From the NCBI RefSeq assembly GCF_016925495.1, contig NZ_CP070491.1, positions 3,596,001 to 3,660,000 on the forward strand: a stretch of 64,000 nt of DNA, given 5' to 3'. The notes under the pieces are model-generated. The model searched no databases, was not told the DNA's origin, and was given only the letters and a program-made list of their open reading frames with translations. Shown piece by piece: positions 30,206 to 34,930 of this stretch. Origin of the DNA: Methylococcus sp. EFPC2 (GTDB lineage Bacteria; Pseudomonadota; Gammaproteobacteria; Methylococcales; Methylococcaceae). Made by a program: the position numbers and the translations under genes. Numbering within the stretch: position 1 is the first letter of the stretch; each line of letters opens with the position of its first letter.

Positions 30206-30350
30206 GGGCGCAGTTTGAAATAGCGAGGCTTTTCGACTCGACAGGAAGGATACCGGTAGGAGCGACCGATAGGTCAAGTGGATTGCATCGCCGCGGCGAA
30301 AGTCCTATCGTGCCGACTCCACAACCATGGAAAAACGAGGGGTAAGCGCT

Positions 30351-30611
30351 ATGAACAAACTACTTGGTTTCATCCTCGCTCTGATCGTTACCGCTCCCGC
30401 GTTCGCGGGCAAAACCTACCAGGTGACCGGCCCGGTCGTGGAGATCACCGACACCGCCGTCGTCGTGCAAAAGGGAAAGGAAAAGTGGGAAATCGCCAAA
30501 TCTGCCAGCACGCCGGTTAAAGGTGATTTGCAAAAAGGATCGAAAGTGACGGTGGAATACACGATGTCGGCGACCAATATCGAAGTCAAACCCGGCGCGC
30601 CCAAGAAATAA
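30351..30611 (+). CDS. Small secreted protein of unknown function
   Basis: An 86-residue protein with a signal peptide (MNKLLGFILALIVTAPAFA, cleavage after AFA) and a mature part of about 67 residues, Lys-rich and beta-strand-like (TGPVVEITDTAVVVQKGKEKW, SKVTVEYT). This pattern suggests a small OB-like or beta-barrel domain. A GAGGGG ribosome-binding site lies 8 bp before ATG 30351. I do not recognise the family. It stands alone, followed by a REP-like palindrome 17 bp after the stop. Confidence 0.7.
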   Translation: MNKLLGFILALIVTAPAFAGKTYQVTGPVVEITDTAVVVQKGKEKWEIAKSASTPVKGDLQKGSKVTVEYTMSATNIEVKPGAPKK

Positions 30612-30627
30612 CCCCAGCTCGAAGTAG

Positions 30628-30654
30628 GGCGGATACCCGGCAGGGTGATCCGCC
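30628..30654. repeat. REP-like palindrome (GGCGGAT...ATCCGCC)
   Basis: A 7-bp perfect arm GGCGGAT/ATCCGCC is extended by ACCC/GGGT around a GGCA loop, with one bulged G. It is preceded by GTAG. Intergenic palindromes of this look are common as dispersed REP-type elements; it may also act as a transcription stop for the small secreted protein gene. Confidence 0.5.
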
Positions 30655-30737
30655 AATCAAGCAGCGGAAAATCAAACCATCCTCGACTCATCACAAAACG
30701 CTGGGGAACGGCTGGCACCGTGGAGCGTTTTCCCTCC

Positions 30738-30766
30738 GGCGGAACCGAATAAAAACCGGTTCCGCC
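30738..30766. repeat. Palindrome GGCGGAACCG / CGGTTCCGCC next to a stop codon
   Basis: A perfect 10-bp inverted repeat with a 9-nt A-rich loop directly abuts the stop codon of the leftward caspase-like gene. It shares the GGCGGA/TCCGCC ends with the palindrome 85 bp away. It could terminate the leftward transcript, or be a second REP-like unit. Confidence 0.5.
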
Positions 30767-31384
30767 TTACGCAGGTGCCGAAACCGTATTACTCCCCTTA
30801 CAATCGAACCATTGGATGTGATCCAGTTGGGCCAGCACGTACTCGTTGTCCCGAGCCTCGAAGCTTGAACGGGTGCCGAAATCCGGGTCCGATGAGATGA
30901 AACTGCCGGGCCAGCCCCCGACAAGGATACTGAAATAGCGCCTCATCCCCAACGCCTTCCCGAGGATAGATGCGAGGCATTCTCCCTTCTTATTGTTTTT
31001 GACAATTAAATCAGCAGCCGGTACGCGTGCGGCACCCGTGGGGTTTTTCATCTTCGAGCTACCCCCGCCGAAGCAGGTGATGAGCAGAATGCTCTGGTGG
31101 CTCTTGGCCAGGCCGCCTGTCTCGAGCATTTCGGCCAGCTCACTCGCCGTGATCGCCACATCGCCCGCCTTGCCGTTCATTGCCAACGTACCGTCGCCCA
31201 AGTCGCCGTGGCCCGCGATTATGAGAAGGTCATCGTCCCCGACGTCCCTTAGGGTCACAGGTGGTCTCTGCCAAACGATTACTTCAAACTTCAGCCCGCT
31301 TTTGCGCAGGTCTTCTACATCCTCTTTCAGGACATCGTCTTCGGAATAATTCTTGAATGGGAAGAACAGAAAAATCTTGGCCAT
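30767..31384 (-). CDS. Caspase-fold (clan CD) cysteine peptidase candidate
   Basis: A 205-residue protein with no signal peptide or membrane segment. Alternating strands and helices carry a putative His/Cys dyad: His59 in LLIIAGHGD and Cys104 in ILLITCFGGG, 45 residues apart. This is the arrangement of clan CD peptidases (caspases, metacaspases, CHAT). Other strands are KIFLFFPF, KFEVIVW and RYFSILVGG. No prodomain or obvious small subunit is seen. A GGAGG site lies 6 bp before the ATG at 31384. It is divergent (80 bp) from a kinase-like small protein. The fold and dyad are inference from motif spacing; no close family is recognised. Confidence 0.6.
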   Translation of the reverse strand: MAKIFLFFPFKNYSEDDVLKEDVEDLRKSGLKFEVIVWQRPPVTLRDVGDDDLLIIAGHGDLGDGTLAMNGKAGDVAITASELAEMLETGGLAKSHQSILLITCFGGGSSKMKNPTGAARVPAADLIVKNNKKGECLASILGKALGMRRYFSILVGGWPGSFISSDPDFGTRSSFEARDNEYVLAQLDHIQWFDCKGSNTVSAPA

Positions 31385-31464
31385 GATGCACCTCCAGTCG
31401 CAGGGCCCGGCGAATCTATCTTCGAGGTAACCGGCGCTGCGCGCCACGAAAGGAAAACGAAGCC

Positions 31465-31869
31465 ATGAACGACCAGACACAGACACCCTCAACGACGCCA
31501 ACAGGCGCAGCGTCCGCGTTGACCGTGGAGTTAGGGGCCACGCGGGCTGTGCTGCTGGTTGGGAGGATGGCTATCAAGGTTCCGCGGTTGAGTACATGGC
31601 GGACGTTCTTGAATGGGCTGCTCGCCAACATGCAAGAGCGTGAGTTCTGGCGCACGCGGTGGGCTGAGTTATGCCCTGTGCTGTTTTCGCTTCCCGGCGG
31701 ATGGCTGGTTGTAATGCCAAGAGCGAAGCCACTGACGGATGCGGATTGGTGCGCGTTTGACACGGAAGAGTTCATCGAACGGAGCGACGGAGTAATCCCG
31801 GTCGAAGAAAAGCAAGACTCGTTCGGATGGCTGAATGGGCGCATCGTGGCAATTGACTATGGCACCTAA
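31465..31869 (+). CDS. Minimal kinase-like (probable pseudokinase) protein
   Basis: A 134-residue protein that reads like a miniature protein-kinase fold. MAIKVP resembles the VAIK beta3 strand, FLNGLLANMQEREFW an alphaC helix, LCPVLFSLPGGWLVVMPRA the beta4-beta5 hinge, and GWLNGRIVAIDYG a catalytic-loop Asn plus a DYG in place of DFG. The HxD catalytic loop is not complete (KQDSFGWLN), so activity is doubtful. I recall similar short proteins from phages and integrated elements, but cannot verify this. It is divergent from the caspase-like gene, which suggests joint regulation. Base composition seems somewhat less GC-rich than the core genes. Confidence 0.55.
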   Translation: MNDQTQTPSTTPTGAASALTVELGATRAVLLVGRMAIKVPRLSTWRTFLNGLLANMQEREFWRTRWAELCPVLFSLPGGWLVVMPRAKPLTDADWCAFDTEEFIERSDGVIPVEEKQDSFGWLNGRIVAIDYGT

Positions 31870-32013
31870 CTTCGGGGTTGTCGTCAGGGGCGGTGCCGGC
31901 GTGGCGATATAATGATCGCTGCTACGCAGCCGTTTCGCGTGGTTCACTGACGTCGCACTAACGATAGTGCAAAGTAACCCGTTTTCCAGCGCCTCCCGGA
32001 GAACCGCACGGTT

Positions 32014-33656: not shown

Positions 33657-34430
33657 TCAGGCGCTTTTACGCAACTCGTCGTAACGGCGGGCCACGCTTT
33701 CCAATTTCACGCCGTCGCTCAATACGTCTTCCAGTTCGCTCGCGATGAATTGCTCGTAATGGCGACGCAGCACGCTGTCGGTCGGGAGCGGAAAGCTCAG
33801 GGACTCGATCAGGGACTTTATGTGCGTCTGAAAATGCCGTCGCAGCACGGAGTCTTCAGGAACGCCGAGGTGGGAGGCAGGGGGGGCCGAGGACGTCGGA
33901 GCATGGGCCGTGGTCGTCGATTCGACTGGCCCCGGTTCGATCACTGCGCGTTCGACAAGCGATAGGCGCCGGCTCAAGGCGGTTTTTCGGTGTTCGTCGT
34001 AGATGCGAATAAGGTTTTTCAGTTTCGAGTCGTCGCTCAAGACGGCTTCCAATTCGCTGGCTACCGATTGTTCATGATGGCGGCGCAATACGCTGTCGGT
34101 CGGGCGCTGAGCACTGACCTCCTCGATCAGGTATTTCAGGTGAGCGAGATAATGCCTTTTCAGTACGGAATCTTCCGGAGTATTTGAGGAATCCGCTCTG
34201 CTTGCCGCAGTAGCCGGGAGGTCGCCGGTGGAATGGCGGCGTTCCAGCACCAAATCTCCTGCAATGGCCCCGCCTACGGTTTCGCCGGCCGGCGAACCCT
34301 GAGTATCGGCGGAGATTTCATCCGGAATGAGTTCACCGGCTTGCTTTTTCCGTAGGAAATAAAAAAGCACCAGAAATAAGGCGATCGCGACAAAGAAATA
34401 CTGTAAAAAGCTGGAATGCTCGGCTTGCAT
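33657..34430 (-). CDS. Membrane-anchored DSVLRRH-repeat protein, unknown family
   Basis: A 257-residue protein with one N-terminal membrane helix (about 7-26), then RKK, then a Ser/Thr/Ala/Gly-rich linker (30-84), so the bulk is probably cytoplasmic. The rest is two 67-residue repeats (85-151 and 191-257) joined by a low-complexity linker. Each repeat has two DSVL(K/R)RH motifs 25 residues apart (87-93, 112-118, 193-199, 218-224). The second motif of each pair leads into ASELE-VLSD--KL and ends YDE-RK. A weaker relative (DLVLERRH) stands at 59-66. I know no function for it. The start at 34430 is chosen to begin at the membrane anchor. Confidence 0.75.
   Translation of the reverse strand: MQAEHSSFLQYFFVAIALFLVLFYFLRKKQAGELIPDEISADTQGSPAGETVGGAIAGDLVLERRHSTGDLPATAASRADSSNTPEDSVLKRHYLAHLKYLIEEVSAQRPTDSVLRRHHEQSVASELEAVLSDDSKLKNLIRIYDEHRKTALSRRLSLVERAVIEPGPVESTTTAHAPTSSAPPASHLGVPEDSVLRRHFQTHIKSLIESLSFPLPTDSVLRRHYEQFIASELEDVLSDGVKLESVARRYDELRKSA
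33660..33860 (-). repeat. Intragenic repeat unit 2 of the DSVLRRH protein
   Basis: Encodes residues 191-257. It aligns without gaps over 67 residues to unit 1 (33978-34178), starting PEDSVL in both and ending in a YDE-RK motif. Confidence 0.75.
33978..34178 (-). repeat. Intragenic repeat unit 1 of the DSVLRRH protein
   Basis: Encodes residues 85-151, starting PEDSVLKRH and ending YDEHRKTA. Together with unit 2 it shows an internal duplication of the coding sequence. Confidence 0.75.
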
Positions 34431-34930
34431 GACGATATTCACCCCGTAATGATGGAAAGAAAGACGCGTTGTTGCATGTAAAGTGCCGGGCACGGTTTCC
34501 GTGTCGGCGACCCTCTCGGTTTATATCCTTCCCTTCGATGTCATGGAACCAAGCCGGTCCCCATCCTCCGTCGAAACCGCATGGAGTGCACACTACCGCA
34601 GGTGGACCGGCTTAGTCTGAACCGCTATTTTCACGACGGCAAGCGCAAACTTGACCCGCCATGCGGGCACGCTCATGGGCGACTTTACTTGCCGAACGCC
34701 GGGTTCGGGCTGGTTTCGAAAGATTTCGACTTTCGGGAATAAGGAAAAAGCCGGTGTAGTTCCTGAGAGTAAATTGTTTATCCACCGGTGAGATGCCTGT
34801 CGCCACGCCGAACTCCCGCATACGCCTCATTCGGTCCTGATTCGGCGGGACAGGGAATTTTCGTGCGTGCGAATCGAAGATTCCCGTATACTCGCGCCTT
34901 ACGGCTACTAGCGAGTTAAACTCCGGCGAC
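34431..34930. other. Intergenic region, 500 bp
   Basis: Between the leftward DSVLRRH gene and the rightward metal-efflux region. It holds the second copy of the 16-bp direct repeat (34655-34680). Near the right end are a TATACT box (34887-34892) and a 6-bp inverted repeat ACTCGC/GCGAGT (34890-34895 with 34911-34916) just before the next gene. An antisense frame at 34612-34977 shows no protein-like features. Confidence 0.5.
34655..34680. repeat. Direct repeat, copy 2 (CCCGCCATGCGGGCAC ... CATGGGC)
   Basis: Sixteen bases are identical to 33603-33618, followed after three bases by CATGGGC. Together the two copies bracket the DSVLRRH-repeat gene. Confidence 0.7.

Follow-up and report, generated by a model that had tools for sequence, protein, structure and literature searches.

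In the window, as the whole analyzed stretch of 64,000 nucleotides from Methylococcus sp. EFPC2 is called here, two short genes diverge from each other beside a palindromic repeat. The upstream neighbors are fabA-like, fabB-like, and ttcA-like genes and a gene for a secreted-looking protein of 94 residues (names assigned by eye), and the downstream neighbor is a gene of the metallo-β-lactamase type (Lactamase_B by Pfam). The preliminary description of the locus had core genes on both sides, a statement that stands for the downstream gene by its Pfam match and for the others as names given by eye. The features of the locus are as follows.

30612-30776: REP-like palindromic repeat of 165 bp, adjoining the 3' end of the 205-residue gene
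30767-31384, minus strand: orphan gene for 205 residues by translation, with a putative dyad H59/C104; probably clan CD cysteine peptidase-like
31385-31464: divergent intergenic region of 80 nucleotides, between the two ATG codons
31390-31395, minus strand: Shine-Dalgarno sequence GGAGGT of the 205-residue gene, read from the sequence
31465-31869, plus strand: gene for 134 residues with a predicted half-size kinase fold, a member of phrog_4301

Translation of 30767-31384 places His59 in DDDLLIIAGHGD (IIAGHGD) and Cys104 in SILLITCFGGGSS, the longer context of the latter being ILLITCFGGGSS. The GGAGGT sequence (plus-strand positions 31390-31395) lies 5 nucleotides ahead of the ATG; an alternative upstream TTG start would give a protein of 244 residues, and the ATG is preferred because the position of the Shine-Dalgarno sequence supports it. 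Translation of 31465-31869 gives the 134-residue protein with MAIKVP and IVAIDYG. Both reading frames are thus confirmed as they were initially reported, the minus-strand one with the His of GHG, the Cys of TCFGGG, and a strong Shine-Dalgarno sequence, and the divergent one 80 bp away with its two motifs. The adjacent palindromic repeats that had also been reported are borne out, parts of 30612-30776 having matches at 14 further genomic sites, of which four lie together at C1:2085566-2086294.

In codon use, the frame of the 205-residue gene is narrowly the best of six (0.052, with the next frame at −0.026), and that of the 134-residue gene is also the best of six yet falls below zero (−0.061, with the next at −0.181), on a scale on which the first 30 ORFs of the training set span −0.206 to 0.354; five neighboring genes score 0.128-0.262, above both. 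The GC content over 30.6-32.0 kb is about 0.56-0.60 as against 0.585-0.667 over 27.0-30.2 kb, and the window's 34.0-34.8 kb are equally low. On account of the codon-use frame scores and the lower GC content, both genes are taken to be real and probably foreign. Neither gene is matched in 37 other genomes of the family.

Several possible traces of an insertion were considered and rejected. Flanking direct repeats would have marked its ends, but only short two-copy repeats are present; a tRNA integration site was discarded with the window's one tRNA 27 kb away; and a common origin visible in the DNA was discarded with blastn of 30612-32013 giving no match in plasmids or phages. A comparison with empty sites also led nowhere, since none of 29 other loci with a gene of the metallo-β-lactamase type (about 1.5 kb examined, some being paralogues at 31-34% identity) holds the ttcA or fabB gene or the genes for the 94- or 145-residue upstream proteins. 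Among the ORFs read by eye beside the 134-residue gene, no phage genes were recognized. Two further observations concern the surroundings. The 94-residue protein (30327-30611, plus strand) has a subthreshold NCBIfam match to ExtJ (E 1.8e-4, 21.8 bits versus a cut-off of 52.5), a selenite/tellurite operon protein. Adjoining the low-GC stretch at 34.0-34.8 kb is an ORF of 278 residues (33657-34493, minus strand), membrane-anchored-looking and with an internal duplication when read by eye, whose two duplicated segments start EDSVL[KR]RH[YF] and then TDSVLRRH[HY]EQ...ASELE.VLSD.

The 205-residue protein gave nothing above cut-off in Pfam, PHROGs, PADLOC, or NCBIfam (Dmrt1 at E 0.047 being below the cut-off), and no Pfam match at E up to 1 to DUF4347 (PF14252) or Peptidase_C14 (PF00656). 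Relatives were found in 0 of 397 other genomes of the phylum, in none of the phage records searched, and in none of the viral contigs or genome contigs, in scans sensitive to close relatives alone; the plasmid search returned one match, with an E of 0.3. The genome holds two Peptidase_C14 (PF00656) matches (best E 3.5e-21, above the family cut-off), which must be other genes because the 205-residue protein has no match to PF00656.

What points, indirectly, to a clan CD (caspase-type) peptidase is, in the first place, the succession of a His-Gly and then a Cys, each behind a hydrophobic strand, at H59 and C104. A pattern of this kind is uncommon by chance, occurring in 78 of 20,000 shuffles and in 16 other of 1,915 open stretches (120 residues or more, some of them from duplicate contigs); it should be noted that the pattern was loosened after its first version missed the 205-residue protein, so that the estimate leans in the protein's favor. 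The loosened pattern is found in 24 of 25 DUF4347, 24 of 25 C14, and 1 of 25 CHAT sequences, and with a Gly after the Cys in 15 of 25, 0 of 25, and 0 of 25, respectively, as well as in 29 of the 20,000 shuffles and in 8 other ORFs. When phmmer was run against a pool in which these 75 sequences were mixed with 2,537 ORFs, the two leading non-self rows, at E 0.0032 and E 0.021, came from DUF4347, as did 14 of the leading 22, which count as one observation because the sequences are mutually related; no C14 or CHAT sequence appeared among the best 30 rows. H59 and C104 coincide with the His and the Cys that are invariant in DUF4347, whether the register is taken from a multiple alignment or from hhalign. 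The hhalign comparison with a 12-sequence DUF4347 alignment, a single uncontrolled one, gave a probability of 3.9% and an E of 0.011.

Against profiles of DUF4347, C14, and CHAT, the 205-residue protein did no better in hhalign than control proteins (34 sequences, comprising 23 window ORFs, 10 shuffles, and 1 reversal): its probability was beaten by seven controls for DUF4347 and by six for C14, and it lay outside the top 8 for CHAT. In profile searches, it ranks 99 of 1,300 reported for DUF4347 and is not reported at all for C14 and CHAT. The AlphaFold2 model, made from the single sequence, has a pLDDT of 38.6; its best Foldseek matches are riboflavin synthase and flavodoxin, none being at E ≤ 1e-3, and its best VIA Z is 5.3, to unrelated α/β proteins. 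Clan CD chains make up 15 of the top 50 Foldseek rows for this model and come from nine entries, of SAVED-CHAT, legumain/butelase, caspase-3 and -11, and GPI transamidase. The caspase-like label of the preliminary description is plausible: the motif, the phmmer search, the DUF4347 register, and the clan CD chains in Foldseek lean towards it, whereas the model, Pfam, the hhalign controls, VIA, and the profile searches do not.

The main alternative is another α/β (Rossmann-like) protein in which the GHG and the Cys occur by chance, a reading favored by the low confidence of the model, by structural matches that include lumazine synthase and receiver domains together with riboflavin synthase and flavodoxin, and by the want of a family match above cut-off. 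It is unlikely, if still a serious contender, given that the weak DUF4347 match is in register and puts H59 and C104 at invariant positions, and given the clan CD chains among the top Foldseek rows. Judged from its sequence, the protein quite likely belongs to clan CD, and the gene would most likely encode a stand-alone cysteine peptidase-like protein whose nearest family is DUF4347. A solved chain of 201 residues named as a DUF4347 domain-containing protein (PDB 9qpe_G) could be a template for it.

For the 134-residue protein, the AlphaFold2 model built with 13 aligned sequences has a pLDDT of 87.1 and a pTM of 0.76 and consists of three strands and a long helix (residues 45-62), then a strand at 82-85, two short helices, and, just ahead of DYG, a last hairpin at 120-129. 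In Foldseek against the PDB, capreomycin phosphotransferase (8e-4) alone reached E ≤ 1e-3; a choline kinase family protein, TTK/MPS1, and APH(2'') came next, at 5e-3 to 4e-2. The viral models yielded 22 matches at E ≤ 1e-3, one of them, at 1.4e-7, being a "Protein kinase domain-containing protein" of Ralstonia phage RP12. The best Z in VIA-align 2 is 8.3, to PRPK (3.2 Å over 114 residues), with values of 7.2-8.2 to APH(2'')-IVa, MPS1, BRAF, and others; a Z near 8 is modest, and by the tool's own warning values below 8 may reflect just a common arrangement. The VIA alignments end with D131 placed on residue 183 of PRPK (7sza_C), 217 of APH(2'')-IVa (4dbx), 664 of MPS1 (4o6l_B), and 594 of BRAF (4mnf_A), the DFG-type Asp of those kinases, and a few rows end one residue off (6cd7_B at 218 and 4yht_A at 593). 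The match to kinases appears specific because D131 pairs with the DFG-type Asp position in kinases that are unrelated to one another. The kinase-like character proposed in the preliminary description is thus supported by a model of pLDDT 87 and by structural matches to kinases and phosphotransferases.

Sequence comparison by itself is less telling. In Pfam, the protein matches no kinase family, DUF5898 (E 0.0067) being below the cut-off. The A2 sequence profile found no significant kinase in the PDB: TTK, aligned in register, came at E 0.66, after an unrelated methylase (0.27), and the narrower A1 profile found just MbtH (0.25) and no kinase. Because the profiles alone give no significant kinase match, the statement on the fold rests on the model together with conservation. 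A PDB match to "ORF378" (9jn8, E 0.69) was a dead end; according to PMC8504454, ORF378 of the phage treated there is a portal protein, unrelated to the present one.

Conservation was read from an alignment of 47 rows (46 distinct relatives and the window protein). All 46 rows that bear a residue at the respective positions share K38, N55, E58, and D131. The 134-residue protein has the hallmarks of a kinase N-lobe, the β3 Lys (K38) and the αC Glu (E58), and by structural alignment D131 occupies the position of the Mg-binding, DFG-type Asp. Seventeen residues ahead of this Asp is a catalytic-loop stretch, recognized by alignment with phage relatives that read DxKxxN, which in the window copy is E114-x-K116-x-x-S119 (ExKxxS). 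Position 114 is Glu in 36 rows, Asp in 9, and Val in 1, and position 119 is Ser in 31, Asn in 11, and Asp in 4, with one gap at each. The combination E114-K116-S119 is present in 31 of the 47 rows, including the window copy; D114 and N119 occur together in 9, of which 6 also have K116 and so display the kinase DxKxxN pattern, read as DxKPxN in three of them (L055, L057, and L060). Relatives in the coliphages IME341 and 121Q carry a DxKPxN loop. The chain of the window protein ends D131-Y132-G133-T134, leaving no activation segment and no C-lobe, and of the 46 rows extending as far as DYG, 36 stop 3 or fewer residues past the column of T134. The phrog_4301 family is thus a kinase core that lacks the activation segment and the C-lobe, and its predicted structure is a half-size kinase fold made up of an N-lobe, a hinge, two short helices, a catalytic-loop stretch, and a terminal DYG.

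It had been stated at first that the 134-residue protein has no complete HxD loop. An HxD-type catalytic loop with the catalytic Asp and Asn is indeed absent from the window copy, but the loop is altered to ExKxxS and not missing altogether. Because the canonical catalytic Asp and Asn are replaced (E114 and S119), the window copy may be inactive as a kinase, and it is more likely a nucleotide-binding variant; other members of phrog_4301 could be catalytic. We consider it improbable that two things hold together, namely that the phrog_4301 proteins are working phosphotransferases of about 110 residues, the smallest enzymes with a kinase fold, and that the window copy was captured by a bacterium beside a stand-alone caspase-type protease, which would either be regulated by it or sense it. 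Phages would then use phrog_4301 proteins with neither activation segment nor C-lobe, the active site perhaps being completed by a partner protein.

The assignment to the family comes from PHROGs, in which residues 23-134 match phrog_4301 (E 1.1e-20), an entry annotated as of unknown function that is also matched by 20 of 20 aligned relatives. By tblastn, relatives occur in 65 of 50,697 phage records, every one at less than 60% identity, and the carriers include genomes of more than 200 kb, a Straboviridae phage, a Schitoviridae phage, and Aeromonas phages. Among the 40 best of the 65 phage rows, four are annotated as serine/threonine kinase, these being two phages and their RefSeq copies, and most of the others as hypothetical protein. 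Relatives are also present in two plasmid records, one with phage-plasmid-like neighbors including Phd/Doc; in 14 and 35 viral-contig loci in two scans whose contigs are partly shared; in four genome contigs, the nearest relative, 64% identical, being on a Hyphomonadaceae metagenome-assembled genome contig; and in 2 of 298 other genomes of the phylum. In the open-licence literature, no title or abstract opening was found that names phrog_4301 as a minimal or phage-encoded kinase. In Shewanella phage SXP01 (L172), two places match the 134-residue protein, one of them within an ORF of 250 residues, and these two matches to the half-size kinase are a possible duplication or fusion.

A stray chromosomal copy with an altered ExKxxS loop might suggest a decayed, functionless fragment of a full-length kinase, but this view is very doubtful, since phages of several groups keep the short form ending in DYG with its invariant Lys, Glu, and Asp, and since the E-K-S pattern is common to two-thirds of the alignment (31 of the 47 rows). 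For the 134-residue protein, family membership, conservation, and the predicted fold are established.

The preliminary description had proposed that the two genes form a module under one divergent promoter, and a lack of recurrent pairing in other genomes had been set beforehand as one ground for refuting it. As the 205-residue protein has no known relatives, pairing can be tested from the side of the 134-residue protein alone, where none was found. Loci with a relative of the latter numbered 63 including the window's own, leaving 62 others with 46 distinct sequences, and a relative of the 205-residue protein was detected in 0 of these 62, whose flanks span 1.5 to 8 kb as far as the contigs extend. 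When the 205-residue protein was searched by tblastn against 169 loci, these among them (869,074 bases, with L019 left out), only the window's own locus scored below E 0.05, and the next rows were antisense frames of a metallo-β-lactamase gene and DUF4347 domains. Viewed by eye, the neighbors of the 134-residue family vary from phage to phage. In the 80-nucleotide intergenic region, a promoter scan revealed no σ70-like site (0 found, 0.7 expected), and neither protein matches known defense proteins in PADLOC at E up to 1. Because of the 62 loci without a partner, the changing neighbors, and the missing promoter-like site, the module under one divergent promoter is not upheld, and the two genes most plausibly came to lie together by local chance or were acquired jointly. 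A stress or defense module with the kinase-like protein as restraint or trigger of the caspase-type protease is suggested by the divergent 80-bp arrangement, by the foreign look of both genes, and by the use of both folds in bacterial defense, but is highly improbable in view of the unpaired loci, the lack of a PADLOC match, and the character of the 134-residue gene as a general phage gene whose neighbors, by eye, change.

The locus is best explained, with moderate confidence, as an islet of foreign cargo, some 1.4 kb long, that carries two probably independent genes, one for a phrog_4301 half-size kinase fold and the other for a clan CD-like orphan. The 134-residue gene would be a stray copy of a gene that is widespread in phages. 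Of the kinase fold, its product appears to keep the ATP-binding N-lobe, a helical part that is shortened, the stretch at the catalytic-loop position, and, in DYG, the Asp that binds Mg. Proteins of phrog_4301 would accordingly be expected to bind ATP and Mg, and in phage would probably act as tiny phosphotransferases on a host or phage protein; alternatively, the large ExKxxS subgroup to which the window copy belongs may consist of nucleotide-binding pseudokinases that work by docking. The adjacency of the two genes would most likely reflect their separate or joint acquisition and not a conserved functional pair. The outcome is a description, as a predicted half-size kinase fold with conserved ATP-site residues, for a common phage family filed under unknown function, and this description opens the question of whether a C-lobe is needed for a kinase core to work or to bind nucleotide. 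The 205-residue protease candidate matters only if it is truly an active clan CD enzyme.

Comparison with known systems places the two proteins differently. The 205-residue protein resembles DUF4347 (PF14252) in having its His and Cys in register, with 21-24% identity when aligned with five members, and the distance from His to Cys is 45 residues as compared with 43 in DUF4347 (H55 to C98). However, 24 of 25 fetched copies of DUF4347 are in open frames of at least 431 codons, whereas the present protein stands alone. With the C14 orthocaspases, it shares a GHG behind one hydrophobic strand and a Cys behind another, but it differs from them in having no PF00656 match. The sequence family of the window's 134-residue protein is phrog_4301, from whose phage members it differs in being chromosomal and, with respect to six of the 47 rows, in having an ExKxxS loop in place of DxKxxN. 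In the alignments with PRPK/Bud32, APH(2'')-IVa, and MPS1, the N-lobe, the hinge, and the Mg-binding Asp correspond over mostly 103-118 residues, with Z values of 7.2-8.3 in the best 50 rows, one of which aligns 66 residues; in contrast to these enzymes, the 134-residue protein has neither activation segment nor C-lobe after DYG, and the catalytic Asp and Asn are replaced in the window copy. Minimal kinases of the OspG/NleH type are also reduced in the C-lobe, but these are near 200 residues or longer, whereas members of phrog_4301 are mostly about 110-135 residues.
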